Shown here piece after piece: positions 1-26,500 of a stretch of 47,878 nt of DNA. The DNA comes from a virus. The stretch lies in the IMG/VR virus record IMGVR_UViG_3300042349_000656, positions 1 to 47,878 of that record, one strand, 5' to 3'. A model generated the notes under the pieces. It ran no database searches. It was not told where the DNA came from and was given only the letters and a program-made list of their open reading frames with translations. The first letter of the stretch is position 1. Every line of letters begins with the position of its first letter. The position numbers and the translations under genes were made by a program.

Positions 1-1
1 G

Positions 2-175
2 GGATACGAGGTTCAGGTGATCCGCGACGCCCTGTCAGACTACCGCCGCGAGTGGATCAACAACGTCCGCGACTGCCGCGAGGGACGCCGCCCGAACATG
101 TCCCTGGAGGGTGCCGAGATGATCCTGGAGGATACCGAGCGCCTGATGCGCCTTCTGTCTGAGTGTGCCGCCTGA
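2..175 (+). CDS. Hypothetical protein, 5' end cut by window edge
   Basis: The reading frame is open from base 2 to a TGA at 173-175 and gives 57 residues of a protein that starts left of the window. It is rich in charged residues (IRDALSDYRREWI near the start, MRLLSECAA at the end) and looks helical. Its GC-rich codons match the small genes to its right, and a G/C hairpin follows its stop, as with other members of this cluster. I do not recognise the family and suggest no function. Confidence 0.6.
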   Translation, partial: GYEVQVIRDALSDYRREWINNVRDCREGRRPNMSLEGAEMILEDTERLMRLLSECAA

Positions 176-187
176 GGTAGTGGCACA

Positions 188-203
188 CACCCCTTGTGGG
201 GTG
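188..203 (+). terminator. Hairpin after the first gene
   Basis: The arms CACCCC and GGGGTG enclose TTGT, 12 bases after the stop of the first gene. There is no T-run, so Rho-independent termination is uncertain. The GTG at 196 lies inside this hairpin and is unlikely to be a start codon. Confidence 0.45.
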
Positions 204-216
204 CCTGAATCCGTTC

Positions 217-222
217 TATTCT
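217..222 (+). promoter_or_regulatory. -10-like box for the HNH gene
   Basis: TATTCT lies 30 bases before the ATG at 247, the same distance as in the other cassettes. The upstream TGAYC box seen elsewhere is not well conserved here. Confidence 0.4.
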
Positions 223-246
223 ACGTTTGTTCCTGAGGAATTCCAA

Positions 247-669
247 ATGGCAACACTCTCTCAGACAATGAAGGCAAAGTATTTTGCTGAGGGTCACATT
301 CACCCAGAATGTGTAAATCAAGGTTGCAACAGTAAGGTTCTGGTTCGTGAGTGGAAGTACTGGTCTTTCAAGTCTGAATGCTCCCGCTGCACTGATGCTC
401 GCAAAAAGGGTAAAGTTCTTCCTGGTATTATCATTCACAAAAAGAACTTTTGTGAGAATGTTGATGGGCAACTTGGTTGGGTTTGCCCTGTTCCCCGTGA
501 CGGATGGATCGGGTTTGAGAATAGTCTGGACTTGGATCATTTGGACGGCGATCATCATAACAACGTCCCCCACAACGTTAAAACCTACTGCAAACTTTGT
601 CACGGTAGGAAGTCACTGATCAATGGAGATTGCAACAGCAACAAACAATCAAGTCGAGTGATCGGGTGA
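247..669 (+). CDS. HNH endonuclease, homing-type candidate
   Basis: This 140-residue protein has two metal-binding parts. The N-terminal part has cysteine pairs C22/C27 and C45/C48, probably a zinc finger. The C-terminal part has the HNH signature DLDHLDGDHHNN at residues 95-106, followed by N110 and C115-x2-C118-H119. HNH proteins of this size are usually DNA nicking or cutting enzymes, often homing endonucleases. The ATG at 247 is chosen because TGAGG lies just upstream and the -10-like box at 217 would exclude the longer GTG start at 196. Its GC content is clearly lower than that of its neighbours, which suggests a separate origin. The target site cannot be read from the sequence. Confidence 0.8.
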   Translation: MATLSQTMKAKYFAEGHIHPECVNQGCNSKVLVREWKYWSFKSECSRCTDARKKGKVLPGIIIHKKNFCENVDGQLGWVCPVPRDGWIGFENSLDLDHLDGDHHNNVPHNVKTYCKLCHGRKSLINGDCNSNKQSSRVIG

Positions 670-698
670 CAGTTCCCAAACCGTCTACCTGACCCTGC

Positions 699-718
699 AG
701 GGGTCGCCGCTGACCCCT
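699..718 (+). terminator. Hairpin overlapping the next promoter
   Basis: The 7-bp arms AGGGGTC and GACCCCT enclose GCCGCT. The right arm is also the upstream half of the next promoter box (TGACCCCT before TATACT), so hairpin and promoter share bases. Confidence 0.5.
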
Positions 719-724
719 TATACT
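711..724 (+). promoter_or_regulatory. Cassette promoter, TGACCCCT + TATACT
   Basis: The -10-like TATACT at 719-724 is preceded by TGACCCCT and followed by the leader GATCTCAGTTCAAACGACAC. The ATG at 748 is 29 bases from the hexamer start. The same module recurs at 1189 and 1494. No -35 box is visible. Confidence 0.7.
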
Positions 725-747
725 GATCTCAGTTCAAACGACACACC

Positions 748-987
748 ATGCGCCTCAAGCAAGTCACCGTCACCAGCACCGAAGTGGAATTGGCAGATGG
801 CACCTGTGTGCTGTTCTCCTACAGCACTCCCGTTGCCGCCCTGGTGCCTGGTAAGGGTTGGATCCGCACCGAGAAAAAGTGGAGCGTGACGACCTCGAAG
901 CACATTAACCGCTGGCTGGCAGAGAACTGCGGCGGTGAGGTTCAGACTGTGCCACAATGGGATCTGGATCAACTGGTGGCGTTCTGA
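748..987 (+). CDS. Small conserved phage protein, DUF8033-like
   Basis: This 79-residue protein carries VLFSYSTPVAALVPG near residues 26-40 and, near residue 53, TTSKHINRWL. That pattern (SY-TPVA, a WS-TTS block, HINRWL) is one I associate with a small family of unknown function in phages and plasmids, probably DUF8033; the name is from memory. There is no membrane segment and no catalytic signature. The start is set by the promoter module 29 bases upstream. There is no Shine-Dalgarno sequence. The role may be host takeover or regulation, but this is only inferred from position among small early-type genes. Confidence 0.8.
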   Translation: MRLKQVTVTSTEVELADGTCVLFSYSTPVAALVPGKGWIRTEKKWSVTTSKHINRWLAENCGGEVQTVPQWDLDQLVAF

Positions 988-1000
988 GGGGCGCCACCCC
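988..1000 (+). terminator. Short GGGG/CCCC hairpin
   Basis: GGGG at 988-991 can pair with CCCC at 997-1000. It starts one base after the TGA of the previous gene and ends two bases before the next -10-like box. Four base pairs is weak alone; it is listed because the arrangement repeats in the cluster. Confidence 0.35.
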
Positions 1001-1001
1001 C

Positions 1002-1007
1002 TACAAT
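1002..1007 (+). promoter_or_regulatory. Cassette promoter, TACAAT
   Basis: TACAAT is followed by ACTCTCACAACGACGAA and lies 27 bases before the ATG at 1029. It belongs to the same family as 1709 and 2387, but the upstream TGAYC part is replaced by C-rich sequence. Confidence 0.6.
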
Positions 1008-1028
1008 ACTCTCACAACGACGAACCTG

Positions 1029-1181
1029 ATGACTGACGACCTGACCTTCCCCCAATGGGGCGCCGCGATGGGCGAGTGGAGTGCTGATCTGGAGCATGAT
1101 GACCTGATGACCGCTGACGACTACGACCGCCGCCGTATGGAGCGGGACGGTTGGCAAAGCGCACACTGGGACGGGCGCTGA
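1029..1181 (+). CDS. Small acidic hypothetical protein
   Basis: This 50-residue protein is strongly acidic in the middle (SADLEHDDLMTADDYDRRR) and has Trp residues near both ends (FPQWGAAMGEW and DGWQSAHWDGR). An upstream in-frame ATG at 957 would place the start inside the previous gene and the promoter, so the ATG at 1029 is preferred. No family is recognised. Small acidic proteins made early by phages often bind host proteins, but nothing here shows a target. Confidence 0.65.
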   Translation: MTDDLTFPQWGAAMGEWSADLEHDDLMTADDYDRRRMERDGWQSAHWDGR

Positions 1182-1188
1182 CCCCACC

Positions 1189-1202
1189 TGACCCCTTATA
1201 CT
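1189..1202 (+). promoter_or_regulatory. Cassette promoter, TGACCCCT + TATACT
   Basis: This is the same box as at 711, with TATACT at 1197-1202 and the leader AATCTCAGTTCACACGACAC differing from the first copy at two positions. The ATG at 1225 is 28 bases from the hexamer start. Confidence 0.7.
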
Positions 1203-1224
1203 AATCTCAGTTCACACGACACCG

Positions 1225-1461
1225 ATGAGCACCGCAACCGACACCACTTTCAATGGTTGGGCAAACTGGGAGACCTGGAACGTCTCCCTGTGGATTCAGA
1301 ATGACGAGTCCCTCTATGATGCTGCCCGCCGCTGCCGCTCCTATCAGGATCTGGTGGCAATGCTCTGGGAGTGTGGCAGCAAGGAGACCCCAGACGGTTG
1401 CCGCTGGGATGACCCCGCCATCGATGGACTGGAAATCTGCGCCATGATGGACGACCTCTAA
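1225..1461 (+). CDS. Small conserved protein, DUF7249-like
   Basis: This 78-residue protein begins with an N-terminal motif, NGWANWETWNVSLWIQNDE at residues 10-28, that is highly characteristic of a family found in phages, plasmids and bacteria; I recall it as DUF7249. A tyrosine-rich middle and a DGCRWDDPAIDGLEI segment near residue 58 also fit. The function of the family is unknown to me. The start is fixed by the promoter and leader module upstream. A six-bp G/C hairpin follows the stop, so it is probably transcribed alone. Confidence 0.85.
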   Translation: MSTATDTTFNGWANWETWNVSLWIQNDESLYDAARRCRSYQDLVAMLWECGSKETPDGCRWDDPAIDGLEICAMMDDL

Positions 1462-1471
1462 ACTGACACAA

Positions 1472-1490
1472 GGGGGGCACCGAACCCCCC
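1472..1490 (+). terminator. GGGGGG/CCCCCC hairpin
   Basis: Six G at 1472-1477 pair with six C at 1485-1490 around a 7-base loop, ten bases after the TAA at 1461. This is the clearest terminator-like structure of the cluster, although no T-run follows. Confidence 0.55.
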
Positions 1491-1493
1491 TCC

Positions 1494-1507
1494 TGACCCC
1501 TTATACT
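1494..1507 (+). promoter_or_regulatory. Cassette promoter, TGACCCCT + TATACT
   Basis: Box plus leader are identical to the copy at 711-744 over the 20-base leader. The ATG at 1530 is 28 bases from the hexamer start. Confidence 0.7.
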
Positions 1508-1529
1508 GATCTCAGTTCAAACGACACCG

Positions 1530-1691
1530 ATGACCCGCTACGACGTGATCTGCCCCTCCGCTCCTTGGGAGAACACCACCACCGATGAGGATCGCGCCTG
1601 GGATCTGTGCCTGTCCCTCTCTGAAGAATACGGGTACGCTCAGGTTCGCCAGAATGGCATGATCATCGGAGACTACACTGAGGGGCGCTGA
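1530..1691 (+). CDS. Small hypothetical protein
   Basis: This 53-residue protein begins MTRYDVICPSAPWENTTTDE and contains AWDLCLSLSEEYGYAQV, then a short hydrophobic GMIIGDYTEGR end. The pattern of a helix followed by an exposed strand suggests a small folded domain; it resembles the small phage proteins of the type that modify or sense a partner, but I cannot name it. It has its own promoter. The stop codon lies in the loop of a G/C hairpin. Confidence 0.75.
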   Translation: MTRYDVICPSAPWENTTTDEDRAWDLCLSLSEEYGYAQVRQNGMIIGDYTEGR

Positions 1692-1695
1692 CCCC
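1682..1695 (+). terminator. Hairpin with the stop codon in its loop
   Basis: GGGG at 1682-1685 faces a run of seven C at 1692-1698. The loop CGCTGA contains the stop codon of the preceding gene. Confidence 0.35.
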
Positions 1696-1700
1696 CCCGC

Positions 1701-1714
1701 CGATCTGCTACAAT
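1701..1714 (+). promoter_or_regulatory. Cassette promoter, CGATCTGC + TACAAT
   Basis: TACAAT at 1709-1714 is followed by ACTCTCAACCACAACGAAC. It is nearly identical to the box at 2379-2392. The ATG at 1737 is 28 bases from the hexamer start. Confidence 0.7.
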
Positions 1715-1736
1715 ACTCTCAACCACAACGAACCCG

Positions 1737-1910
1737 ATGTCCTTCCTGACCCGCTTCCTGACCTTTACCCTGATCGGGTGGGTCATCCTGCAAGTGGCAG
1801 CAAAGGCAACCACCGCCGACCTGCAGGAGCACAACGCCGATGCCGTCTGTACCGCCTCTCCCGTTGTCTGTGGATTGGGCGATGGGTCGGGCGCTCCGAT
1901 GGACTTCTGA
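1737..1910 (+). CDS. Small exported or membrane protein with a cysteine pair
   Basis: This 57-residue protein has a single hydrophobic segment (FLTRFLTFTLIGWVILQVAAKA, residues 3-24) after a short N-terminus, which could be a signal peptide or a membrane anchor. The rest is short and polar, with two cysteines in HNADAVCTASPVVCG. The gene at 2949 has the same plan and a similar Asp-Ala-rich stretch before a cysteine pair, so the two may be distant paralogues. It may act in the host envelope or thylakoid membrane, for example in lysis or superinfection exclusion; this is inference only. Confidence 0.7.
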   Translation: MSFLTRFLTFTLIGWVILQVAAKATTADLQEHNADAVCTASPVVCGLGDGSGAPMDF

Positions 1911-1921
1911 CCTGATACAAT
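1908..1921 (+). promoter_or_regulatory. Cassette promoter, TGACCTGA + TACAAT
   Basis: The first three bases of the box are the TGA stop codon of the preceding gene. TACAAT lies at 1916-1921. Unlike the others it is 63 bases from its gene, with a hairpin in the leader. Confidence 0.55.
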
Positions 1922-1926
1922 GGGAA

Positions 1927-1950
1927 CGGCAGCGCCCTTAAAGACTGCCG
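1927..1950 (+). promoter_or_regulatory. Leader hairpin before the gene at 1979
   Basis: The 6-bp arms CGGCAG and CTGCCG enclose a 12-base loop in the long leader of this cassette. No other cassette has a comparable leader structure. It may affect translation or transcript stability. Confidence 0.35.
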
Positions 1951-1978
1951 CCAAACTCACAACGATTCCGACTTTATC

Positions 1979-2116
1979 ATGACCCGCGAACTCGCCCTGT
2001 CCCTGCTGCGCTCTGGCAACGATGGCGCTCAGATCCTGCAGATCCTGGAAACCATCGCTACCGATCAGGATGGCACCCCTGCAGGCGAACCGACCGCCGA
2101 AGAGATCCAATTCTGA
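1979..2116 (+). CDS. Small hypothetical protein
   Basis: This 45-residue protein begins MTRELALSLLRSGNDGAQIL and continues with a helical stretch QILETIATDQDG before an acidic end AGEPTAEEIQF. It looks like a two-helix protein. The family is typical of short phage and cyanobacterial proteins of the form LLR-GN-G--IL-IL, but no function is known to me. Its stop is followed by a second in-frame-independent TAG and a G/C hairpin. Confidence 0.7.
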   Translation: MTRELALSLLRSGNDGAQILQILETIATDQDGTPAGEPTAEEIQF

Positions 2117-2130
2117 TAGTGGCACAGCGG

Positions 2131-2144
2131 AGGGGGGCACCCCT
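2131..2144 (+). terminator. AGGGG/CCCCT hairpin
   Basis: AGGGG at 2131-2135 pairs with CCCCT at 2140-2144 around GGCA, 15 bases after the TGA at 2114-2116. Confidence 0.45.
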
Positions 2145-2157
2145 TCCCCTTTGCCTC

Positions 2158-2163
2158 TATACT
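2158..2163 (+). promoter_or_regulatory. Cassette promoter, TATACT variant
   Basis: TATACT is followed by GATCTCAGTTCAGACAAAGA, so the first 12 bases of the leader match the copies at 725 and 1508. The upstream TGAC part is changed to TTGC. The ATG at 2187 is 29 bases from the hexamer start. Confidence 0.65.
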
Positions 2164-2186
2164 GATCTCAGTTCAGACAAAGACCG

Positions 2187-2381
2187 ATGACCGAAGACCG
2201 CCTGCTCTGCCTCTACGAAGAACTGCTGGTGCTGGCAGAGCGTCAGGCAGTTGACCTCTATGGTTGCGACCTGGATCGCCTGGACCCTGAGATCCTGGAG
2301 TTCTATGGGTCCAAACTGACGGAGGACAACCTGGAGGAACTGGCATCCGACCTTGCCCACGAGGCATGGTTCGCCAACTGA
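2187..2381 (+). CDS. Small acidic helical protein
   Basis: This 64-residue protein is mostly helical and acidic. It runs MTEDRLLCLYEELLVLAER, then DLYGCDLDRLDPEILEFYG, and ends with NLEELASDLAHEAWFAN. Heptad-like leucines suggest a helical bundle or a protein-binding role. No known family is recognised. Its TGA stop at 2379-2381 is also the first three bases of the next promoter, so the two cassettes are fused without spacer. Confidence 0.75.
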   Translation: MTEDRLLCLYEELLVLAERQAVDLYGCDLDRLDPEILEFYGSKLTEDNLEELASDLAHEAWFAN

Positions 2382-2392
2382 TCTGCTACAAT
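2379..2392 (+). promoter_or_regulatory. Cassette promoter, TGATCTGC + TACAAT
   Basis: The box begins with the TGA stop codon of the upstream gene. TACAAT at 2387-2392 is followed by ACTCTCAACCGCAACGGAC. The ATG at 2415 is 28 bases from the hexamer start. Confidence 0.7.
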
Positions 2393-2414
2393 ACTCTCAA
2401 CCGCAACGGACCTC

Positions 2415-2618
2415 ATGACCACCGCCGAACTGACCGCCGCCATCGCCGCTGGTGATTTCACCGTTACCGTCCTGCCTGCCCGCAAACCCCGTAAGGCAGA
2501 TCTGATCATGTCCTGCGTTGGCGGTGCTAAGTCCCGCTTCTACGCCGCAACGGGCAGCGGACGCAACGGACGCGAGCAGGAGCAGCGCCAGCGCCTGGCA
2601 GGTGTTGCCGCTCACTGA
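2415..2618 (+). CDS. Small basic hypothetical protein
   Basis: This 67-residue protein starts with a helix and strand (MTTAELTAAIAAGDFTVTVL), followed by a basic region ARKPRKADLIMS, then GGAKSRFYAATGSGRNG and a Gln/Arg-rich helix REQEQRQRLAG. It is the most basic protein of the cluster and could bind nucleic acid, but no domain is recognised. The start is fixed by the promoter 28 bases upstream. Confidence 0.7.
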   Translation: MTTAELTAAIAAGDFTVTVLPARKPRKADLIMSCVGGAKSRFYAATGSGRNGREQEQRQRLAGVAAH

Positions 2619-2627
2619 TTCCCTCGA

Positions 2628-2649
2628 GGGGGGTTCCCAAATGCCCCCC
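2628..2649 (+). terminator. GGGGGG/CCCCCC hairpin
   Basis: Six G at 2628-2633 pair with six C at 2644-2649 around a 10-base loop. It directly abuts the next promoter box, whose first bases overlap its right arm. A CCCTCGAGGG palindrome at 2621-2630 overlaps its left arm. Confidence 0.5.
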
Positions 2650-2662
2650 GATCCTGTAGACT
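2649..2662 (+). promoter_or_regulatory. Cassette promoter, CGATCCTG + TAGACT
   Basis: TAGACT at 2657-2662 is followed by TCTCTCACAACCGCAAGG. Aligning the CTCA downstream with the other boxes sets the register. The ATG at 2687 is 30 bases from the hexamer start. Confidence 0.6.
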
Positions 2663-2686
2663 TCTCTCACAACCGCAAGGCACCCC

Positions 2687-2905
2687 ATGTTCATCGGTAT
2701 CCCTGTTGACTGCCTGGACTCTGACTCCATCGACACCCTGAGCGCCAACCCAATCACTGGCGATGTCTACGTCCGCTTCCAACGCTATCGGACCCGCCGC
2801 CCTTACGCCTTCAAAGCATCCCGCCGCGCCATCCTCTCCCTTCTGGTGAATTCCAAAGGATCAAAGGGAAAGTGGGTGAACCTTCATTGCACCCCCGCCG
2901 CCTGA
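2687..2905 (+). CDS. Small KTSC-like protein
   Basis: This 72-residue protein has the pattern of the KTSC domain: a serine-rich start (LDSDSIDTLSANPITGDVYV), an aromatic strand pair (RFQRYRTRRPYAFKA), a helix (SRRAILSLLV) and an ending with SKGSKGKWVNLHC that corresponds to the family's S-GKY-N motif. KTSC domains are small, often stand-alone or fused to lysyl-tRNA synthetase-like proteins, and are common in phages; their function is not established. The match is from memory of the pattern, so the family call is moderate and the coding call is stronger. Confidence 0.7.
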   Translation: MFIGIPVDCLDSDSIDTLSANPITGDVYVRFQRYRTRRPYAFKASRRAILSLLVNSKGSKGKWVNLHCTPAA

Positions 2906-2908
2906 CCC

Positions 2909-2922
2909 CGATCCTGTAGACT
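2909..2922 (+). promoter_or_regulatory. Cassette promoter, CGATCCTG + TAGACT
   Basis: This 14-base box is identical to the one at 2649. The leader is longer (ATG at 2949, 32 bases from the hexamer start). No hairpin separates it from the preceding gene. Confidence 0.6.
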
Positions 2923-2948
2923 GACTTCAGATCAACCGACCCGCTCTC

Positions 2949-3095
2949 ATGGCAAACCTGATCCGCCTCTCTGCTCTCGTCATGATCCTATGGATGGGAG
3001 GCAATCTGTTCGGCGCCGCTGCTCAGGTCACCAAGGCACACGCCGACCGCACCGCTTCCGCCATCTGTGAGGCGACAGGAGATTGCAACCGCTGA
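2949..3095 (+). CDS. Small exported or membrane protein with a cysteine pair
   Basis: This 48-residue protein has a hydrophobic N-terminal segment (LIRLSALVMILWMGGNLFGA, residues 4-23), with small residues GAAAQ where a signal peptidase could cut. The mature part is about 22 residues and ends HADRTASAICEATGDCNR, with two cysteines. It shares its layout with the protein at 1737. Exported microproteins of this kind could act in the periplasm or membrane. No family is recognised. Confidence 0.65.
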   Translation: MANLIRLSALVMILWMGGNLFGAAAQVTKAHADRTASAICEATGDCNR

Positions 3096-3108
3096 GGGGT
3101 TGACCCCT
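3095..3108 (+). terminator. AGGGG/CCCCT hairpin at the stop codon
   Basis: AGGGG at 3095-3099 pairs with CCCCT at 3104-3108 around TTGA. The left arm starts with the last base of the stop codon. Confidence 0.4.
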
Positions 3109-3115
3109 GACCCCC

Positions 3116-3129
3116 TGACCCTGTAGAAT
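3116..3129 (+). promoter_or_regulatory. Cassette promoter, TGACCCTG + TAGAAT
   Basis: TAGAAT at 3124-3129 is preceded by TGACCCTG. The identical 14-base box occurs at 3379. The ATG at 3154 is 30 bases from the hexamer start. Confidence 0.65.
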
Positions 3130-3153
3130 TCCAAAGCAAACGCAAGGCAACCG

Positions 3154-3345
3154 ATGACCGACTCCTGCTTCCCCGCTGAGATCGCCGCTATCACCAATCC
3201 TGAGAATGGCACCATCTACTGGATCGAAGCGGCATACGCTGCCAAGATCCATGGTCTGTGGGATGACTTCCGCACCGACTACGGGACGACCGCTTCCTTC
3301 GGTGGGGTCGATGCTGGTGAGTTCCTCTCCTGGTTAGGTTACTGA
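3154..3345 (+). CDS. Small hypothetical protein
   Basis: This 63-residue protein has an aromatic core, TIYWIEAAYAAKIHGLWDDF, followed by RTDYGTTASFGG and a hydrophobic end GEFLSWLGY. It is mildly acidic with no membrane segment or catalytic signature. The start is set by the promoter 30 bases upstream. It may be an early host-interaction protein by its position only. Confidence 0.7.
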   Translation: MTDSCFPAEIAAITNPENGTIYWIEAAYAAKIHGLWDDFRTDYGTTASFGGVDAGEFLSWLGY

Positions 3346-3351
3346 TCCGCG

Positions 3352-3379
3352 AGGGGGGTGGGTTGACCGTCCGCCCCCT
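3352..3379 (+). terminator. AGGGGG/CCCCCT hairpin
   Basis: Six-bp arms at 3352-3357 and 3374-3379 enclose a 16-base loop that itself holds the palindrome GGTTGACC. The right arm touches the next promoter box at 3379. Confidence 0.4.
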
Positions 3380-3392
3380 GACCCTGTAGAAT
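3379..3392 (+). promoter_or_regulatory. Cassette promoter, TGACCCTG + TAGAAT
   Basis: This is an identical copy of the box at 3116. TAGAAT at 3387-3392 is followed by TCTCAAGTCAACCGATCC. The ATG at 3417 is 30 bases from the hexamer start. Confidence 0.65.
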
Positions 3393-3416
3393 TCTCAAGT
3401 CAACCGATCCGATCCG

Positions 3417-3608
3417 ATGTCCCGCTTCCCTCTCGCCATGTGCTCTGACCTGGAGACCCGTCAGATCAAGTGGATCTCCCGCGCTGATCAACTGAAGAAC
3501 GGTTCGCGTCCCTCCGCCTACATTCACTGGGGACTGCCCGCCACCGTGATCGCCGCCCAGTATGCCGAGACTCATGCCGACGAAGTCCGCCCCGTGACCT
3601 TCGGGTGA
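3417..3608 (+). CDS. Small hypothetical protein
   Basis: This 63-residue protein contains LETRQIKWISRADQLKNGSR followed by AYIHWGLPATVIAAQYAE. It has a near-neutral charge and a Trp/Ile/His middle that suggests a compact alpha-beta fold. No family is recognised. The start is fixed by the promoter 30 bases upstream. A seven-bp hairpin follows the stop, so the transcript probably ends there in part. Confidence 0.7.
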   Translation: MSRFPLAMCSDLETRQIKWISRADQLKNGSRPSAYIHWGLPATVIAAQYAETHADEVRPVTFG

Positions 3609-3614
3609 TCCTGC

Positions 3615-3634
3615 AGGGGGGACCTCTCCCCCCT
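3615..3634 (+). terminator. AGGGGGG/CCCCCCT hairpin
   Basis: Seven-bp arms at 3615-3621 and 3628-3634 enclose ACCTCT, seven bases after the stop at 3608. The pyrimidine-rich sequence that follows (TCTCTGTCCCTC) contains no strong T-run. Confidence 0.55.
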
Positions 3635-3660
3635 TCTCTGTCCCTCTGCTCTGCTGACCC

Positions 3661-3924
3661 ATGTTCTACGTCTCCTGCCCTCAGGGTATCTACCTCACCG
3701 AAGGACCCTTCCTAACCGAAGAGGATGCCCGCGAGTGTGCCATCTGCCTGTCTGCTGATTCTGCAGAATTTTTCGATGGGGACTGCCAACCGATGCTGAT
3801 CCGCGAGGGCGCCACCGATGGTGAGGTGGTTGCCACTGTCACCGCTGATGCCCCCCTCGATCCCTCATCATCCGATCTGAGTTGGGAGAGCACTCAAGCG
3901 GAACTGGATTCTCTTGGCGGGTAG
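3661..3924 (+). CDS. Small acidic protein, last gene of the cassette array
   Basis: This 87-residue protein starts MFYVSCPQGIYLTEGPFLTE and continues with EDARECAICLSADSAEFF, an acidic middle and an acidic Ser-rich tail SSSDLSWESTQAELDSLGG. It has four cysteines but no spacing that I recognise as a metal site. It is the only intact gene of the array without a visible -10-like box 28-32 bases upstream, so it may depend on readthrough past the hairpin at 3615. Its codon use is still that of the GC-rich block. Confidence 0.7.
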   Translation: MFYVSCPQGIYLTEGPFLTEEDARECAICLSADSAEFFDGDCQPMLIREGATDGEVVATVTADAPLDPSSSDLSWESTQAELDSLGG

Positions 3925-3990
3925 CACGAACGAATGGGCACGGGGTCTTCGTGGAGCAACACGACAGTTGTGGTGAGCGGGTAGTACGGG
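3917..3990 (+). repeat. Direct repeat pair at the composition boundary
   Basis: GCGGGTAGCACGAA at 3917-3930 and GCGGGTAGTACGGG at 3977-3990 match at 12 of 14 positions, 60 bases apart. The first copy includes the stop codon of the last cassette gene. They border the drop in GC content. Confidence 0.5.
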
Positions 3991-4191
3991 TGTTCGCCCG
4001 CCCTAAGCGTTAAGCGTATACCCCCCCCCGTATAAAAAAGCGAAACTACCCTAACCTACAGAGGTGACAAAAGGCGAGAGAGATATCAATCTCATATAAA
4101 AAAAATTTTCAGGTGTGTCGACAAACTCTAAGGGTTCATATATAATTGCGGATATATTCCATTTCTGGTAAAAAAAATTTCCGCAGAAAAT
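3925..4191. other. Gene-free junction between GC-rich and AT-rich DNA
   Basis: No ORF with plausible coding character is seen. The segment holds a hairpin (CGGG/CCCG) around 3987-4000, a tandem TAAGCGT pair at 4004-4017, and a C9 tract at 4021-4029 flanked by GTATA on both sides. From about 4030 on the DNA is AT-rich, ending in the promoter at 4118. No tRNA can be folded here by eye. Confidence 0.6.
4118..4146 (+). promoter_or_regulatory. Canonical sigma-70 promoter
   Basis: TCGACA (one mismatch to TTGACA) at 4118-4123 and a perfect TATAAT at 4141-4146 are separated by 17 bases. It would drive the genes from 4192 on. It contrasts with the cassette boxes, which lack a visible -35. Confidence 0.75.
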
Positions 4192-4447: not shown

Positions 4448-5218
4448 ATGGCAAAAGGATTTACTGTTAAAGAAAAGCCGTCTCAAGGAACCAATGCTGA
4501 AACTTGGGACTATGAAGCAATTAAAGAAAGAATGCGTGGTAAGAATATTGTATTCTGCCTACCTGGACGCGGATGCTCATATCTCTTTCTGAAGAGTTTT
4601 GTACAGATGTGTTTTGATCTGGTACAGAACAACATGAGTATTCAGATCTCTCAGGACTACTCTTCAATGGTTAACTTTGCACGTTGTAAAGTACTAGGTG
4701 CAAATGTTCTACGTGGTCCTAAGCAAATTCCTTGGGATGGTAAACTGCAATATGATTATCAACTCTGGATTGATAATGACATTGTTTTTAACACTGAAAA
4801 GTTCTGGCAACTGTGTGATGTTGCTCTGAATGATAAAGGTGAAGAAAAAGAAATCGTTGCTGGTTGGTACGCTACAGAAGATGGTCACACTACTTCTGTT
4901 GCTCACTGGTTGGAAGAAGATGATTTCCGTAAGAACGGTGGTGTGATGAATCATGAAACCGTTGATTCAATCTCCAAGCGTCGTCGTCCATTTACTGTTG
5001 ATTACACTGGTTTTGGTTGGGTTCTAATTAAGAACGGTGTATTTGAGAATCTTGAGTATCCTTGGTTTGCTCCTCAGATGCAAGTCTTTGAGTCTGGTAA
5101 GGTTCAAGATATGTGCGGTGAAGACGTTTCATTCTGTCTGGATGCAAAGAAAGCAGGATTTGAAATTTGGTGTGATCCACGTATTCGTGTTGGTCACGAG
5201 AAAACTCGCATTATCTGA
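4448..5218 (+). CDS. Glycosyltransferase-like protein, GT-A fold candidate
   Basis: This 256-residue protein has an early block KNIVFCLPGRGCSYLFLKSF at about residues 32-51 and a D109-N110-D111 motif in LWIDNDIVF, which fits the metal-binding DxD of GT-A glycosyltransferases. Later segments VDYTGFGWVLIKNGVFE and CGEDVSFCLDAKKAGFEIW fit the acceptor-site and ED motifs of family-2-like enzymes; the EDVSFC block is typical. It is common in T4-like cyanophages, where its substrate is unknown; a sugar transfer to phage or host polymer is likely. Its stop overlaps the next start (TGATG), showing a translational link. Confidence 0.75.
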   Translation: MAKGFTVKEKPSQGTNAETWDYEAIKERMRGKNIVFCLPGRGCSYLFLKSFVQMCFDLVQNNMSIQISQDYSSMVNFARCKVLGANVLRGPKQIPWDGKLQYDYQLWIDNDIVFNTEKFWQLCDVALNDKGEEKEIVAGWYATEDGHTTSVAHWLEEDDFRKNGGVMNHETVDSISKRRRPFTVDYTGFGWVLIKNGVFENLEYPWFAPQMQVFESGKVQDMCGEDVSFCLDAKKAGFEIWCDPRIRVGHEKTRII

Positions 5219-18396: not shown

Positions 18397-21300
18397 ATGG
18401 GTGCTTTAATCAATAGTGGTATTGGCGCATATGAGGCAACTTCAAATGCCGTTAAAACTTCGTTTGATTTGCTCCATAAGGGAAATCCAATATTCGAAAG
18501 ATATTTTAATGGAGAAAGTTCTGTAACAATTGATATTGCAACAAATAGAATAGCTATCCCAAATCATAATTTTGTTACAGGGGAAGAGGTTGAATATGAT
18601 TATAACTATGATTTTTTACATCGTCCAATAGGAATAGTAACGACAAACATACCTGGAGTAGGATCAACTGATATACTACCTTCAACTCTTTATATTGTTA
18701 AAGATGATGATCTTTATGTAAGATTTGCATCTTCTCCTTCAGATGCAAATGTAGAATTTCCAACAGTTCTTGATATTAATAGTGTTGGTGTCGGAACTTT
18801 GCATAGAATACTGTCCAAAAACACGGAGAGTAGAACTTTATTTTCTATTGACAATGTAATTCAATCGCCTATTGTAGGCACAGGTGTCACATCGTCTCTA
18901 GTAACTTCAATTAATACTATTACTGACATTATTGGAGTAAGCACAACCGTAAACTTATATAATGGTGATTTCATCAAAATTAATGATGAAATTATGCAAA
19001 TAAGAACTGTAGGATTTACAAGTTCTAACTATCTTTTAGTAAAAAGACCAGTTGTTGGAACAAATCTTGGAGTTCATACAATCGGAAATATTGTTGAAAA
19101 ACTATCTGGAAATTATACTATTACTGGTAGTACTGTAAACTTTACAGGAGCTCCGTTTGGAGTGAATCCAGTAGCACTGGGATCATCAGAAGGGTTTTCA
19201 TATAACGATTTTGATTATGCTGGAATCAACACTTCTTCAAAATTTAGTGGGAGATGTTTTATAAGATCATCTATCCCTGGAGACACTAGAAAAGCTTACT
19301 ATGACAATTACATTTTTGATGATATATCTGAAGGATTTAGTGGGGTCGCATCCGATTTTTATCTAAGATCAAATAAAACAAATATTTCTAATTTTGATTT
19401 AGATTCGGCTATTCTTTTAGTAAGAAATGTATTCCAAAATCCCAAAGTAACGTACAATAATTCCAGCTCTGGAAATTATGAAATTAATATTGGCGTAAGT
19501 TCAGTTTCACTAAACTTTACTGGATTGGTTCCATTTTTACAAGAAGATGTTAATAGTTCAGGTGTTCCTGTCGGTGGTGTTATTTCCTCAATTGGATCTT
19601 CTGAGGGATCTGGATATCAAAAATTAAAAAAAGCTGGATTATCAGCAACCTTAAGTCCATCTGGGTCAATTCAGTCTATACAAATAAATGATCCAGGTTC
19701 TGGTTATAGACCAAATATTCAAACTCCTATTAATGTATATGCAAAAACTGGTAATTTTCTAAATCAATTAATTGAAAAAATTGGAGAAGCAGTAATAGGT
19801 TCTGATATTGAAACTAGAGGAAAAGTAGTTTCGGTTAATATTAGTAATTTTGGATCGGGATATTCTACAGAAAATTCACCAGAAATACTTATAGACGAAC
19901 CACTAAATTACACTGGTATTCCTTTAGTTTATAGTGCATCTTCTCAGGCAGGCATCGGAACTGGTGCTAAGATAGATGTTGTTGTTGGGGAAGATTCTAA
20001 TATTATTGCATTTGAGATGAAAGAATATGGTTATGGATATAAACCAGGAGATATTCTAACTTTACCATTCGGATATGATTCTGGAGGAGTAGAAGGTTTA
20101 ATTGATTATGATTATAATATTTTAACTGTAAACCAAAGTATAAATCCAGGTATTACTACAACTTTTGATAGTCCAACTGTAGTTGATGATGGAGTATTGG
20201 TATATGTTGATGATACAGGAACATTAATAATTGGAGATAATAAATATGTTTCAATATTAGAAGAATTTCAAATATATATTGATGCTGTATACAAGGATGA
20301 TTTTAGTGCATGGTCATTTGGCGAATTGGAAGTATTTGATTCTCCAGAAAGATTATTTAATGGAACTAGAAGAATATTCCCACTAACAATAAATGGAGTA
20401 TCAAAATCAATCATTGGAGATTCTAGATTAGATTTACAATCTGCTTTATTAGTATTTGTTAATGGAATCCTTCAAATTCCAGGAGAGGGGTATACTTTTA
20501 CTGGAGGGAGCACTATAACCTTTACAGAAGCTCCAAATGGACCTTTGGCAGGAACACAAAATACTGGAGATACTTGTCAGATAATGTTCTATAAGGGGAC
20601 AAAAAATGTTGATGTTACCGATGTTGATATTTTAGAAAGTATTAAAAAGGGTGATAGTGTTAGATTACTTGATACTGATGATAAATTAAAGCAAGATAGT
20701 AGACTGGTTCATGATATAACTTCAACGACTCGCATTTTGACCAATTTATATGCTGGTGTAGGAATTGTATCGGATACTACTTTGCAGAGATCGCTATATT
20801 GGAGTAAGCAAAAAGAAGATTTATTTATTGGAGGTTTAGAGGTAACTAAAGATAGACCTTTATATGAACCAAAGATAAACCCAATAACTAACATTATTAA
20901 AAATGTTGGAACTGCTTTATCAACATCAATATATGTTGAAAATGTTAAAACATCATTTGACAACTATAAAGAAGATATTAGTGGAGATAGATTTGGTGAT
21001 ATTGAAATAATCGATCAAGCGGAAAAAATAAGAGCAAGAGCAACTGCACTTATTTCTTCTGGTATTGTAACTTCTTTTGTTTTTATTGATAGAGGTTTTG
21101 GATATACAGTGGGAACCAATCCATCAGTCTCAATGACTAGTCCTATTGGTATCGGATCTACTGGTAGAGCAAGAGGATACGCAAATGTTAATGCTGCTGG
21201 AAGAATAAGTTCAATAACAATTACAAATCCTGGATATGGATATACTACTCCTCCAGATGTTCTTATCGAACAACCAATTGGAAATAGAGAAAAGATTTCA

Positions 21301-21945
21301 AATGTAACTTATAGTGGGGATTATGGAGTAGTTACAGGAATTGCAACTACAGCAGTTGGAGTTGGATCTACAGGATTAATTTTTAGTTTGTATGTTCCTG
21401 AAGGATCAACTATAAGAGATGTTTCAATAACTGGAACTGCAATTACTTCAAGTCAACTCCGTCAAGGCGATTACTTTGTTCTTCGAAATTCATATGTAGG
21501 ACAAGGAATAACTTCACTGGATCTTAGTGGAAATATTATTGGAATAGCAACAACAGGAATAGATAATGTCTATCAAGTATATTCTTCAACGTTTGAGAGT
21601 AAAGTTTTCACCACTACAGATATCATAAGTGGATTTGAAATATATAATAGTCCAGGTTTAATTAATGAGGGAGTAACTATAACTGTAGATGATGACGCGA
21701 TATTGGTTATTGATGACTTTTCAACTACAAATGTAACAGTTAGAGTTGCGGAAGTTTATCCAAGTATCAGTACTCTAGCGCCAACATTATTCTATGCAGA
21801 TTATTCTTGGGGTAAAATACAAACAACATCAAGAAAATCTCCAAAATCTTTCGTAGCATACACGCAAAGAGGAGTTGTTGGATTGGAAACTTCTGCATTT
21901 GTTAGAAGAGTCAATCCATTAAATTACTTCGATTATATTTCATAA
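18397..21945 (+). CDS. Large baseplate-region structural protein, unknown
   Basis: This 1182-residue protein lies between the gp7-like gene and gp8, where T4 has no gene. It begins MGALINSGIGAYEATSNAVK, followed by one HNFVTGEEVEYDY repeat, an INDEIMQI segment like that in gp15, and five GxGY-type beta repeats with tyrosines at 437, 489, 548, 903 and 949. A block starting at residue 648 (DSPERLFNGTRRIFPLTING, then LLVFVNGILQIPGEGYTF) is one I know from virion proteins of many phages, often fibre-like. No enzyme motif is seen. It is probably an outer baseplate or fibre-base protein; this is inferred from position and repeats. Confidence 0.8.
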   Translation: MGALINSGIGAYEATSNAVKTSFDLLHKGNPIFERYFNGESSVTIDIATNRIAIPNHNFVTGEEVEYDYNYDFLHRPIGIVTTNIPGVGSTDILPSTLYIVKDDDLYVRFASSPSDANVEFPTVLDINSVGVGTLHRILSKNTESRTLFSIDNVIQSPIVGTGVTSSLVTSINTITDIIGVSTTVNLYNGDFIKINDEIMQIRTVGFTSSNYLLVKRPVVGTNLGVHTIGNIVEKLSGNYTITGSTVNFTGAPFGVNPVALGSSEGFSYNDFDYAGINTSSKFSGRCFIRSSIPGDTRKAYYDNYIFDDISEGFSGVASDFYLRSNKTNISNFDLDSAILLVRNVFQNPKVTYNNSSSGNYEINIGVSSVSLNFTGLVPFLQEDVNSSGVPVGGVISSIGSSEGSGYQKLKKAGLSATLSPSGSIQSIQINDPGSGYRPNIQTPINVYAKTGNFLNQLIEKIGEAVIGSDIETRGKVVSVNISNFGSGYSTENSPEILIDEPLNYTGIPLVYSASSQAGIGTGAKIDVVVGEDSNIIAFEMKEYGYGYKPGDILTLPFGYDSGGVEGLIDYDYNILTVNQSINPGITTTFDSPTVVDDGVLVYVDDTGTLIIGDNKYVSILEEFQIYIDAVYKDDFSAWSFGELEVFDSPERLFNGTRRIFPLTINGVSKSIIGDSRLDLQSALLVFVNGILQIPGEGYTFTGGSTITFTEAPNGPLAGTQNTGDTCQIMFYKGTKNVDVTDVDILESIKKGDSVRLLDTDDKLKQDSRLVHDITSTTRILTNLYAGVGIVSDTTLQRSLYWSKQKEDLFIGGLEVTKDRPLYEPKINPITNIIKNVGTALSTSIYVENVKTSFDNYKEDISGDRFGDIEIIDQAEKIRARATALISSGIVTSFVFIDRGFGYTVGTNPSVSMTSPIGIGSTGRARGYANVNAAGRISSITITNPGYGYTTPPDVLIEQPIGNREKISNVTYSGDYGVVTGIATTAVGVGSTGLIFSLYVPEGSTIRDVSITGTAITSSQLRQGDYFVLRNSYVGQGITSLDLSGNIIGIATTGIDNVYQVYSSTFESKVFTTTDIISGFEIYNSPGLINEGVTITVDDDAILVIDDFSTTNVTVRVAEVYPSISTLAPTLFYADYSWGKIQTTSRKSPKSFVAYTQRGVVGLETSAFVRRVNPLNYFDYIS

Positions 21946-21948
21946 ATA
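21942..21948 (+). promoter_or_regulatory. Late promoter of gp8, ATAAATA
   Basis: ATAAATA (with a further AATA after it) overlaps the stop codon of the upstream gene and lies 17 bases before the gp8 start. Confidence 0.5.
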
Positions 21949-21964
21949 AATAAAAAAGTTTAAA

Positions 21965-23536
21965 ATGGCAGCAATAATAACGGATCAATTAAGAGTGTTG
22001 ACTGCAAAGTTATTTGTAGACAATGCAACTGATCCCAATAATTCATATTATAGTTTTATTGGATTACCAAACCCAACTGATATTTTATCAACTTGGGATA
22101 CAAATCCTCCTGCTCCAAAAGATTGTTTAGATGAAGAAAATAATTATTGGGATACAACTATAGCATTGAAAAAAATTACTTCTGATAATGTTAGATTGGC
22201 GATCAGAAAATATCAATGGCAAAGTGGAACAGTTTATGATATGTATCGTCATGATGTGTCAAGGACTAACCTTTCTAGACCATCAAAATCAACAACTCTA
22301 TACAGAGCTCCATTTTACGTAATAAATCAAGATTATAGAGTTTATATTTGTCTACAAAATGGAACAACTCCAGAAACTCCAGATGGTTCACCTTCATTAG
22401 ATGAACCAACATTTACTGATTTGGAACCAAGAGAAGCTGGAACAAGTGGAGATGGTTATATTTGGAAATATCTTTATACTGTTAAACCAGCGGACATTGT
22501 TAAGTTTGATTCGATTGATTTTGTACCCACTCCCCCAAATTGGAGTACAAATGATGAATATGCTTCTATTAGAAATAATGCTTCAAGTAGTGGACAATTA
22601 AAGATAGTAACAATTACAAACAGAGGTGCTGGAATTGGAACTGCAAATGCAGTTTATACAAATGTTCCAATTTCTGGGGATGGTGAGGGTGCTGAAGCAA
22701 CTATTGTAATTGATAATGATTCAAAGGTTGAGTCTATTACTGTTTCAAAAGGTGGTAGTGGATATACTTTTGGCACAATAAACTTAGTTGCTGGTAATGT
22801 CCCATCTGGAACAACAAACCCAACATTTGATGTGGTAATTCCACCAAAGGGAGGTCATGGAGCAGATTTATATAGTGAACTAGGTGCATTTAATGTTCTT
22901 CTATATACTAGAATTGATAATGACGAATTGAATCCAGATTTCATAACTGGAAATAAAATTGCAAGACTTGGAATTATTGAAAATCCAACTTCATATAATT
23001 CTTCTGTTATTTTGAATGTGGAAAAAGCAAGTGCATTATACGGGATTCGTTTGACAGGATCTACAGGATCTGTTCAAACTGCAGTATTTGAACAAAATAG
23101 TTTTGTTTATCAAACTATAGGTTTAGGTGTTACTGCTGTTGGTAGGGTTGTTTCTTATGACCCCCAAACTGGAGTTTTAAAACTATGGCAAGATAGAACT
23201 TTTGCTGGTTTTAGTACAAGTGGATCTAGAACTACAAATCCACCATATGGATTTGTATTAAATTCATTCACATCAACACCAGATATTGGAGGAAGCTTAA
23301 CAATTACTGGCGGTTCAATTAATTTAGACATTGATACTGGATTCAGTGGTATATCAACTACAATAAATAATGCAGGTAATTTCAAAACTTACTATCTGGG
23401 ACAAACTTTTGTCGATGGAATAGCAAATCCAGAAGTACAAAAATATTCTGGAACAACATTATATGTTGATAATAGACCAGCGATCACCAGATCAAAGTCA
23501 CAAAAAGAAGATATCAAAGTCATTTTGCAGTTCTAA
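21965..23536 (+). CDS. gp8: Baseplate wedge protein gp8 with an inserted repeat domain
   Basis: gp8 of T4 has 334 residues; this one has 523. Its C-terminal end GTTLYVDNRPAITRSKSQKE then DIKVILQF matches T4 gp8 (IYMENRPPI...Q-EEINILFTF), and DGYIWKYLYTV matches T4 DGYVWEYLFEI. The N-terminal half has WDTTIALKKITSDNVRLAIR and WQSGTVYDMY, typical of cyanophage gp8. The additional length lies mostly at residues 220-380 and includes GxGY-type beta repeats (IGTANAVYTNVPISGDGEGA, KGGSGYTFGT). gp8 dimers form part of the baseplate wedge and contact gp7. Confidence 0.92.
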   Translation: MAAIITDQLRVLTAKLFVDNATDPNNSYYSFIGLPNPTDILSTWDTNPPAPKDCLDEENNYWDTTIALKKITSDNVRLAIRKYQWQSGTVYDMYRHDVSRTNLSRPSKSTTLYRAPFYVINQDYRVYICLQNGTTPETPDGSPSLDEPTFTDLEPREAGTSGDGYIWKYLYTVKPADIVKFDSIDFVPTPPNWSTNDEYASIRNNASSSGQLKIVTITNRGAGIGTANAVYTNVPISGDGEGAEATIVIDNDSKVESITVSKGGSGYTFGTINLVAGNVPSGTTNPTFDVVIPPKGGHGADLYSELGAFNVLLYTRIDNDELNPDFITGNKIARLGIIENPTSYNSSVILNVEKASALYGIRLTGSTGSVQTAVFEQNSFVYQTIGLGVTAVGRVVSYDPQTGVLKLWQDRTFAGFSTSGSRTTNPPYGFVLNSFTSTPDIGGSLTITGGSINLDIDTGFSGISTTINNAGNFKTYYLGQTFVDGIANPEVQKYSGTTLYVDNRPAITRSKSQKEDIKVILQF

Positions 23537-23542
23537 AAAATC

Positions 23543-26500
23543 ATGCCCCAAGAAACTAATTTAAATATTTCTCCATATTTTGACGATTTTGATCCAAATA
23601 AGAATTTTTATAAGGTTCTTTTCAAGCCAGGTTATCCAGTTCAAGCAAGAGAACTAACTGGATTACAGTCAATTCTGCAAAATCAGATTGAACAGTTTGG
23701 AAATCATGTATTTAAAGAAGGTTCTGTAGTAATTCCTGGCCAAATAAATTATAATAATCAATTTTTTGCAGTTGAAGTTGAAGATTCTTATGCAGGAATA
23801 TCTCTTTCATACTATTTGGACGATTTAGTAGGAAAGACAATTAAAGGGGCTACGTCTAACGTTCAAGCAAAAATTATAAAAGTACTTGACACTTCTTTTT
23901 CTGAGAGATCATATATTACACTTTATCTTTCTTATCAGGGAGCTGGGGTAGATAATCAGGCAGTTTTTTCTGATGCAGAAACTCTTTTACTTGAAGAAAA
24001 CTTAGTTAAGGGACAATTTGTTATTCAGAGTGGAGAGGGATTTGCAAATACTGCAGGAGTTAGTGCAACTTCAATAGGTTCTGCTGTCATTCTTTCTGAG
24101 GGTGTTTATTTTATTAGAGGAACTTTTGTAAATGTTGACAGTCAAACTTTAATTTTAGACGCACATTCAAATTTCCCATCATATAAAGTAGGTTTTGATA
24201 TAGTTGAAGAAGTTATATCTGCAGATGATGATCCTACACTATATGATAATGCAAGAGGTTTTGCAAATTATGCAGCTTCTGGTGCAGATAGATTTAGAAT
24301 AAGAGCAATATTATCCAAAAAACCACTTAATAGTTCTGATAATCAGAGTTTTATTAGCCTCTTAGAAATAAGGGAAGGTATTTTAATATCTGGTAAGAAA
24401 AAGGAATCAACATATAATATTCTGCAAGATGAAATTGCAAGAAGAACTTATGATGAATCAGGAGATTATTATGTAAGACCTTTCTCAATAACAGCAAAAG
24501 AGTCTTTAAATAACAATCTTGGGAATAATGGAGTATTTAACAGTAATCAATTAACATACTCAAATAATGTTCCAAGTAATTCTTTGGGCGTATATAAAAT
24601 TTCTCCTGGAAAAGCATATGTACAAGGATATGAGGTAGAAACTTTATCTACAACATATATTGATTTTGAAAAACCAAGAACCACAAATACTAATCTTAAT
24701 CAAGAAATTGTATATCAAACTGGATCAACGTATACTTTGAATAGGGTATATGGATCTCCATCTATTAACTTAGCCGCACCATTTACGGTAAGTTTAAGAG
24801 ATTCTAGAATTGGAGGAATTCATACAACATCTGCAGGAAAGGAAATTGGTCTAGCAAGAGTATATGACTTTTCGTTAGAATCTGGTTCTTATCTAGCAGC
24901 AGATCCAAATTCAAATCAATGGGATATTTCTTTATTCGATATTCAAACATATACTGAAATTTCATTAAATGAACCTATAACACTAACTACCCCCAAATTC
25001 ATTAAAGGGAAGTCTAGCGGGGCGACAGGATACCTTAGAACAAACGTTAGTAACTCTAAGTTACTAACGTTGTATGGAACAAAAGGTACGTTCTCAAAAG
25101 GAGAAAAATTTGTTTTCAATGGTACAGAAACAGATAGTAGAGTTGCTATAGCAGTTACTCAATATAATGTTGACGATGTTCAGTCCATCTCTAATGTAGG
25201 CACATCATCGACTATTTTTAATGCAGATATTATTCCCGATGTTAAGCAATTTTTTGGAGATGTACTTATAACTCAAGAAAGAAATAATGGTAGTGGAGTA
25301 GGAATTTCGACAGTTAGAGTAACAGATAGTCAAGATATTATATTTACAAATATTGTAAAACCTGGAAATTTAGTTTCATATACTAAAGTTGGACACACTG
25401 CTCAAACTTTATCTAAAGTACTTACAGTAAACGAAAAAGAAATTATAGTCGCTGGTATAACTACAGTGACAAATATTTGTGATGGTGGATTGCCACAGTC
25501 ACAAATGGATATTAAGGATTTTGCTCTACTCTCCTCAAGATTCTTACCTTCTGGAGATAATACTTTATATACAAACCTTCCGCGACCATTTATAGCTAAC
25601 GTAGATTTAACAGAATCAAATCTAACAGTTAGAAAAGAATTCCCAATTACAATCAGTGCAAATCAAACCAATACAATTACAGCAGGAGATAATGAAACAT
25701 TCCTACCTTTTGATGAGGAAAGATATGTTTTAACAACTTCTTCTGGTCAATTTGAAGTCCTAACCCCAGATAGATTTGTCTTTGAAAGTGGACAAAAACA
25801 ATTAACTATAGTTGGTCTAGCAAATACTAGTGCTTCAAATTGCAGATTAATTGCTACTTTGAGAAAAATTAATGTTACCAGCAAGACAAAATCTAAAAAA
25901 AGAATTAACAGTCTTGTATTTGATAGATCTAGAGATATCTCATCTGGAATAGGAACCACAACTCTTAATGATGGTCTTTCATATGGTACAAGTTATCCAT
26001 ACGGAACTCGAATTCAGGATGAAGATCTTTGCCTATTAGTTCCAGATGTAACAAAGGTATACTCTATTTTAGAATCAACAAATACAAATGATCCTATTTT
26101 ACCTACAATAATCCTATCAAATCTTAGTGGATCTTCAGCAACAACTCAGGAACTTATAGTTGGAGAAGAATTTATAGGAGAAATAAGTGGAGCTGTTGGA
26201 GTTGTTGTTTCTAAGATTGATGACGTTAGAGTAGAGTTTAGTTATCTAAATGAAAATATACTACAAGAATTAGAACCAATAAGATTTAAAGAATCTGGAG
26301 TAACTGCAGTATCTCAAGCAGTAAACGCTGGTAGTAGAAATATTATTGCTAATTTCTCATTCGATTATGGACAAAGAGATACTTTATATGATTATACATC
26401 TTTAAGGAGAAATGCAAATTCTCCAGAACCAAAAGGAAAACTGAGGGTAATTTATGAGACTGCAGAATTCTCACCTTCAGATACTGGTGATATTGTAACT

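Follow-up and report, generated by a model that had tools for sequence, protein, structure and literature searches.

Integron gene cassettes are small interchangeable genes held at one site; they are usually promoterless and require attC sites and an integrase. In T4-type phages, promoter-early stem-loop (PeSL) cassettes are said to have been described by Arbiol in 2010 and by Comeau in 2014, reportedly in the pairs RB49/phi1, T4/PST and KVP40/nt-1. The gain and loss of the many tiny early genes of phages is poorly understood. The DNA analyzed here, a fragment 47,878 bases long from a T4-like cyanobacterial virus (cyanomyovirus; IMG/VR record IMGVR_UViG_3300042349_000656) and referred to as the window, opens with a guanine- and cytosine (GC)-rich array of 15 small genes, most of them arranged as promoter-gene cassettes. 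The available evidence makes it likely that these cassettes are swappable units at a fixed site, that whole units are gained, lost and swapped, and that they are probably early units of the host polymerase.

The region 1-3924 contains 15 small open reading frames (ORFs), all on the + strand, with a GC content of 54-60% per kb against 28-40% for the remaining window. A preliminary description of the letters had counted fifteen small genes in less than 4 kb of GC-rich DNA, and the count is confirmed. The common build that it ascribed to most of them is confirmed as well: 11 of the 14 starts carry a repeated box and nine of the 14 gaps a stem-loop, and three genes have no box. The features are as follows.

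1..3924, + strand: GC-rich array, 15 small genes, mostly promoter-gene cassettes (from GC content, ORFs and gaps, and relatives)
2..175, + strand: cassette gene 1 of family 22, truncated at its 5' end where the window begins (complete at L101:5588-5803, 71 aa, behind a class I promoter)
247..669, + strand: gene for an HNH endonuclease, inserted within the array, GC 45%, lacking an array-type promoter (best match to the PHROG HNH profiles at E 2e-4; 4 loci)
719..736, + strand: class I box TATACTGATCTCAGTTCA
748..987, + strand: cassette gene, family 5 (phrog_5643), 40 loci
1001..1014, + strand: class II box CTACAATACTCTCA
1029..1181, + strand: cassette gene, family 25, 11 loci
1197..1214, + strand: class I box, one mismatch
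1225..1461, + strand: cassette gene, family 3 (Pfam DUF7249, phrog_871), 46 loci
1470..1491, + strand: G/C stem-loop ahead of class I promoter, terminator-like, no U-tract
1502..1519, + strand: class I box
1530..1691, + strand: cassette gene, family 2 (phrog_17176), 48 loci
1708..1721, + strand: class II box
1737..1910, + strand: family 23 cassette gene, product with a hydrophobic segment at its N terminus
1922..1949, + strand: candidate pseudoknot RNA element GGGAACGGCAGCGCCCTTAAAGACTGCC, no Rfam match
1979..2116, + strand: family 0 cassette gene, found in 69 loci, more than any other family; it usually has no array promoter of its own
2128..2151, + strand: G/C stem-loop ahead of class I promoter
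2158..2175, + strand: class I box
2187..2381, + strand: cassette gene, family 17, 17 loci
2386..2399, + strand: class II box, no stem-loop
2415..2618, + strand: cassette gene, family 15, 21 loci
2657..2662, + strand: class III -10 TAGACT
2687..2905, + strand: cassette gene, family 10 (phrog_7365), 26 loci
2917..2922, + strand: class III -10 TAGACT
2949..3095, + strand: cassette gene, family 24, N-terminal hydrophobic segment
3100..3129, + strand: class III promoter, -35-like TTGACC, 18-nucleotide (nt) spacer, TAGAAT
3154..3345, + strand: cassette gene, family 6, 32 loci
3363..3392, + strand: class III promoter, -35-like TTGACC, 18-nt spacer, TAGAAT
3417..3608, + strand: family 1 cassette gene, 51 loci, in most cases near the array 3' end
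3661..3924, + strand: last array gene, family 82, 2 loci, preceded by a stem-loop, no -10 box
4448..5218, + strand: conserved right border gene (phrog_1574), a neighbour common to most arrays

At the 11 boxed starts, the -10 box belongs to one of three repeated classes and lies 21-27 nt before the start codon; a twelfth box, the class I promoter of gene 1, is seen in the related contig L101. Class I has the consensus TATACT(G/A)ATCTCAGTTCA, with the 18-mer box TATACTNATCTCAGTTCA and window copies at 719, 1197, 1502 and 2158. Class II is the 14-mer already singled out in the preliminary description; its three exact copies, at 1001, 1708 and 2386, are the only ones in the 47.9 kb, and with up to two mismatches the window holds eight sites against 0.65 expected. 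Class III reads (C)CTGTAGA(A/C)T, with -10 elements at 2657, 2917, 3124 and 3387. The exact class I 18-mer is present in at least 119 IMG/VR contigs. In the loci compared, an ORF starts 3-25 nt downstream of 208 of the 212 exact class I sites, a distance of 9-17 nt for sites with at most one mismatch, and a reversed-sequence control gave zero class I sites at up to three mismatches. The 5' leaders, 18 nt long on average, show no structure, and most have no Shine-Dalgarno sequence. Leader identity is barely higher within contigs (0.47) than between them (0.41), with 0.49 for the same family, and the idea that whole leaders evolve in concert within a genome was dropped on that account.

Clustering of the 980 array genes from 113 loci yielded 125 families, of which 48 occur in at least five loci; 13 of the 15 window genes belong to families present in 11-69 loci. 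The class I box precedes members of 47 families, and families such as 1, 2, 6 and 10 are found behind all of classes I, II and III (family 1: class III 14, class II 20, class I 5; family 10: class I 10, class II 9, class III 4). Nucleotide differences are concentrated at third codon positions in 13 of the 13 families tested, which indicates that the array ORFs are real genes.

Comparison of relatives revealed how the content of the array changes. We considered 45 distinct, de-duplicated indels in the GC-rich part of loci whose flanks are at least 85% identical. All 45, with a median length of 255 bp, remove whole genes (11.2 at random), exactly one gene in 33 cases. Of the 45, 34 have a junction midpoint that falls between genes, against 12.1±2.9 at random, a value that none of 2000 draws reached, and a looser cut gives 92 of 125 against 33.5. 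Junctions peak 0-40 nt upstream of the start codons, the zone of promoter and leader. In the cleanest case, loci L108 and L012, with flanks of 99% and 98% identity, differ by one 208-bp cassette with the shared edge CTGATCTGCTACAATACTC. Together with the presence of the same family behind different promoter classes and the variable content at a fixed site, these indels strongly support the earlier proposal of a platform on which small genes are gained and lost under shared control. The same genes in the same order without repeat units, which the preliminary description had named as contrary evidence, were not seen among the relatives compared.

The gaps between genes carry a second recurrent component. 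Clear G/C stem-loops are found in nine of the 14 window gaps and a candidate pseudoknot in one, with nothing strong in the remaining four. Among the 194 units of relatives with at least 20 nt between the stop codon and the -10 element, the mean fold z-score, computed against mononucleotide shuffles, is -2.05 and 66% fall below -1.5, compared with a mean of -0.24 and 18% in coding controls; the remaining third of the units have no stem-loop.

Several observations weigh against the interpretation as cassettes. Three of the 15 window genes, the HNH gene (247-669) and those at 1979-2116 and 3661-3924, have no array-type box. U-tracts are mostly absent from the stem-loops, TTTT occurring in 17 of the 194 in relatives, and a rapid scan for U-tract terminators found no excess. 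About half of the junctions (22 of 45) share less than 15 nt, and some of the indels, 187 bp long, bring overlapping ORFs together where there is no promoter, which implies that promoters are not the sole joints. These last two findings would be expected if illegitimate joining took place anywhere and purifying selection kept the gene-sparing junctions, so that the repeated promoters would be a consequence of exchange and not its cause; selection alone would also put junctions between genes. By contrast, 23 of the 45 junctions share 15-48 nt, and 19 of these 23 contain the -10/CTCA motif, against 0.02% of random pairs sharing at least 10 nt. This is not decisive, because all units start alike and homology at the junctions alone does not discriminate between recombination at the boxes and random joining with later selection. 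On balance, we regard this explanation as somewhat unlikely.

Gene order is also partly kept (mean Kendall tau 0.57), and some neighbours are fixed, family 9 having just two right-hand neighbour families in 26 cases. Such residual order would fit an ordinary, vertically inherited early operon in which the repeats are decorative and no modular exchange takes place. This reading is very unlikely, given that gene content is highly variable (median Jaccard index 0.17 between non-redundant loci), that 40% of shared adjacent gene pairs remain adjacent, and that whole-cassette indels are seen at 95-99% flank identity.

Whether the box is an early promoter of the host polymerase bears on the remaining contrary points. 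All boxes have a -10 element, and classes I and II mostly lack a -35 element: a -35-like TTGAC accompanies 8 of 203 class I boxes, 20 of 168 class II boxes and 25 of 64 class III boxes. Conservation extends beyond the -10 through the start region (AGTTCA). In 257 gigabases (Gb) of bacterial and archaeal genomes the class I 18-mer gave 11 matches, none in a picocyanobacterium, which is fewer than the roughly 30 expected by chance for 17 fixed bases at uniform composition; a host origin of the 18-mer was rejected on these counts. A phage factor could therefore read the box, which might then, e.g., bind a middle-phase activator, act as an RNA signal in the 5' leader or serve in recombination. We consider this improbable, since all box classes keep TAnnnT at a sigma-70-like distance from a CTCA start-like motif, with tight spacing to the start codon. 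Moreover, cyanomyoviruses lack the T4 polymerase-modifying genes, and their early transcription has been inferred to use unmodified host polymerase with sigma-70 (PMC2984593). Late transcription would start from NATAAATA according to the same review (PMC2984593). A scan of the window found the late-type ATAAATA absent from the array; its copies immediately precede gp25 and the genes at 21965, 41303 and 44542. From the sigma-70-like boxes, the reviewed use of host polymerase and the absence of ATAAATA from the array, we infer that most units are early.

Based on these results, a unit comprises, in many cases, a G/C stem-loop behind the preceding stop codon, then a -10 element accompanied by a conserved start region, a leader of about 18 nt that is unstructured and has no Shine-Dalgarno sequence, and a single ORF, usually of 40-100 codons. 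Host RNA polymerase with a sigma-70-type factor would probably transcribe the units as soon as infection begins. The stem-loops may partly insulate neighbouring units, possibly by termination. As most units open with one of a small set of promoter sequences that can stand in for each other, recombination or other joining at the unit boundaries would add, remove or swap whole genes, and each gene would keep a working start. Most units would thus be transcribed early and could be gained or lost singly without disturbing their neighbours.

The array sits at a fixed hyper-variable site upstream of the cyanomyovirus baseplate genes gp25-gp6. It lies upstream of the same neighbour genes in about 70 of the loci compared, and homologues of the window gp25 and gp6 stand to its right in relatives and in phage S-PM2, where they are annotated as gp25 and gp6. 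The conserved structural block that follows the array, from gp25-gp6 onwards, places the window among the T4-like cyanomyoviruses (Kyanoviridae), and the arrays belong to viruses of freshwater and coastal cyanobacteria. The contig L101 is 99.93% identical to the window over 5,848 bp and supplies the start and class I promoter of gene 1, so the array does not depend on a single assembly.

The composition of the region changes sharply at its right border, with a GC step from 60% to 38% at about 3,950, and third-position GC (GC3) is about 0.7 in the array ORFs, the HNH gene excepted. Such a profile could be produced by a recent block of host DNA in place of a phage cassette platform. That explanation is highly improbable: the array families recur in more than 100 viral contigs, and the box, not above chance in cellular genomes, is present in AT-rich arrays. 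The class I promoter is also found in the AT-rich phages L034 and L097 (GC 0.36), and high GC is thus a trait of the array in some lineages and not of the promoter. At the GC step, a 267-nt non-coding stretch (3925-4191) carries CCCCCCCCCGTATAAAAAA.

The preliminary description had recognised no family for most of the ORFs, and searches of the array proteins against PHROGs, Pfam and NCBIfam returned only families of unknown function and HNH. The 391 phage records that contain the family DUF7249/phrog_871 (1225-1461) include phages of E. coli, Klebsiella and Campylobacter. The fold predicted for this family is confident (predicted local distance difference test, pLDDT, 91) and mostly helical, and the model has no match in the PDB; the model of family 5 is weak (pLDDT 68). 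The proteins encoded at 1737-1910 and 2949-3095 are short, with an N-terminal hydrophobic segment and a similar layout, and are possibly small membrane proteins. The HNH gene has a clearly lower GC content, is common to few relatives (L051, L101 and L116), and is possibly a homing passenger.

The family 0 gene usually lacks an array promoter and is preceded instead by the element at 1922-1949. The pattern of this element, GGGANNGNNNGCGCC...AAAGAC..., with a covarying second stem (e.g., window 1922-1949, L229:1501 and L230:1501), was found in at least 119 IMG/VR contigs, a few of these matches being due to chance, and in the isolates S-RSM4, DSL-LC03, S-CAM4 and ACG-2014 strains. GGG/CCC interleaved with GGCAG/CTGCC constitutes an H-type pseudoknot arrangement of 27-29 nt. 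Both strands of the second stem vary (C-G/G-C, A-U/U-A), and this stem is fully formed, straight or with a one-base bulge, in 25 of 28 distinct cores; when the 3' strands were redealt, 14.0±2.0 of 28 formed it, with a maximum of 22 in 2000 redeals, a statistic that ignores relatedness. The element occupies three placements: just after the upstream stop codon (family 0), before the promoter in the stem-loop slot (family 9), and, for other genes, frequently those of AT-rich phages, at the gene start 8 nt past the -10. No match was found among 4,227 Rfam families, which include riboswitches and other RNAs. Stop-codon readthrough at the pseudoknot was rejected, as the window gap (68 nt) is not in frame. 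It is quite possible, with chances close to even, that this is an undescribed H-type pseudoknot RNA reused in three positions, a mobile mRNA-end element that would protect, terminate or regulate early messages; it may otherwise be a dyad bound by a protein at the DNA level.

Several described loci share features with the array. The cyanophage hot spot reported upstream of gp25 corresponds in location and in its small genes of unknown function, whereas the accessible part of its description mentions no repeated promoter unit or cassette mechanism. In halovirus HF2, repeated intergenic sequences are reported to have been tested as promoters (PMC8707807), but this is an archaeal virus of unrelated sequence. 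Unlike integron cassettes, most units of the array have a promoter. The array showed no recognisable att-like site, although no search aimed at att sites was made.

The 'ORFanage' of S-PM2, at 5.8-15.3 kb, resembles the array in its shuffled orphan genes in a cyanomyovirus, upstream of gp25, and is enriched in freshwater and hypersaline metagenomes (PMC4503421). Too few PeSLs were found there, and PeSLs were rejected as its explanation (Puxty 2015, PMC4503421). By contrast with the array, the ORFanage is a separate block with 35-40% GC in the part inspected. The array of S-PM2 (L123) is a smaller, mostly unannotated one at 21-25 kb with 51-58% GC; a gene caller places about nine unannotated + strand cassette genes at 21,546-24,299 of the record. 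Some of these overlap annotated ORFs that are on the minus strand or shifted, and the minus-strand annotations at 20,455 and 21,656 score as non-coding under the array codon model. The annotation of this type phage is corrected accordingly.

The closest counterpart is the PeSL cassettes. These reportedly share with the array a composite of stem-loop and sigma-70-like promoter between small variable genes, a hyperplastic region, and whole-gene indels that break at the composite element. In the array, many near-identical promoter copies precede unrelated small genes in a variable region, a stem-loop stands beside the promoter in the gap of two thirds of the units, and indels between relatives break at this composite element. 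The array differs in its three virus-specific box classes, mostly without a -35, in the lack of a U-tract, in its cyanobacterial hosts and its GC island, and in units spaced every 150-300 bp, with up to 26 genes. There is no evidence that the boxes descend from T4-type elements, which makes the array the same kind of thing and not a homologous member. Promoter-stem-loop shuffling is hereby extended to cyanophages, where the S-PM2 study had judged it unlikely for the ORFanage. The arrays form a natural parts library, with 125 families and a few standard promoters at a single site in more than 100 viruses, in which exchange can be read cassette by cassette; they are a source of cyanobacterial promoter parts to test and a list of candidate proteins that may serve counter-defence or host takeover, the early role proposed in the preliminary description. 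The array is a dense cyanophage counterpart of PeSL cassettes, in which the principle is known and the sequence, host and density are new.

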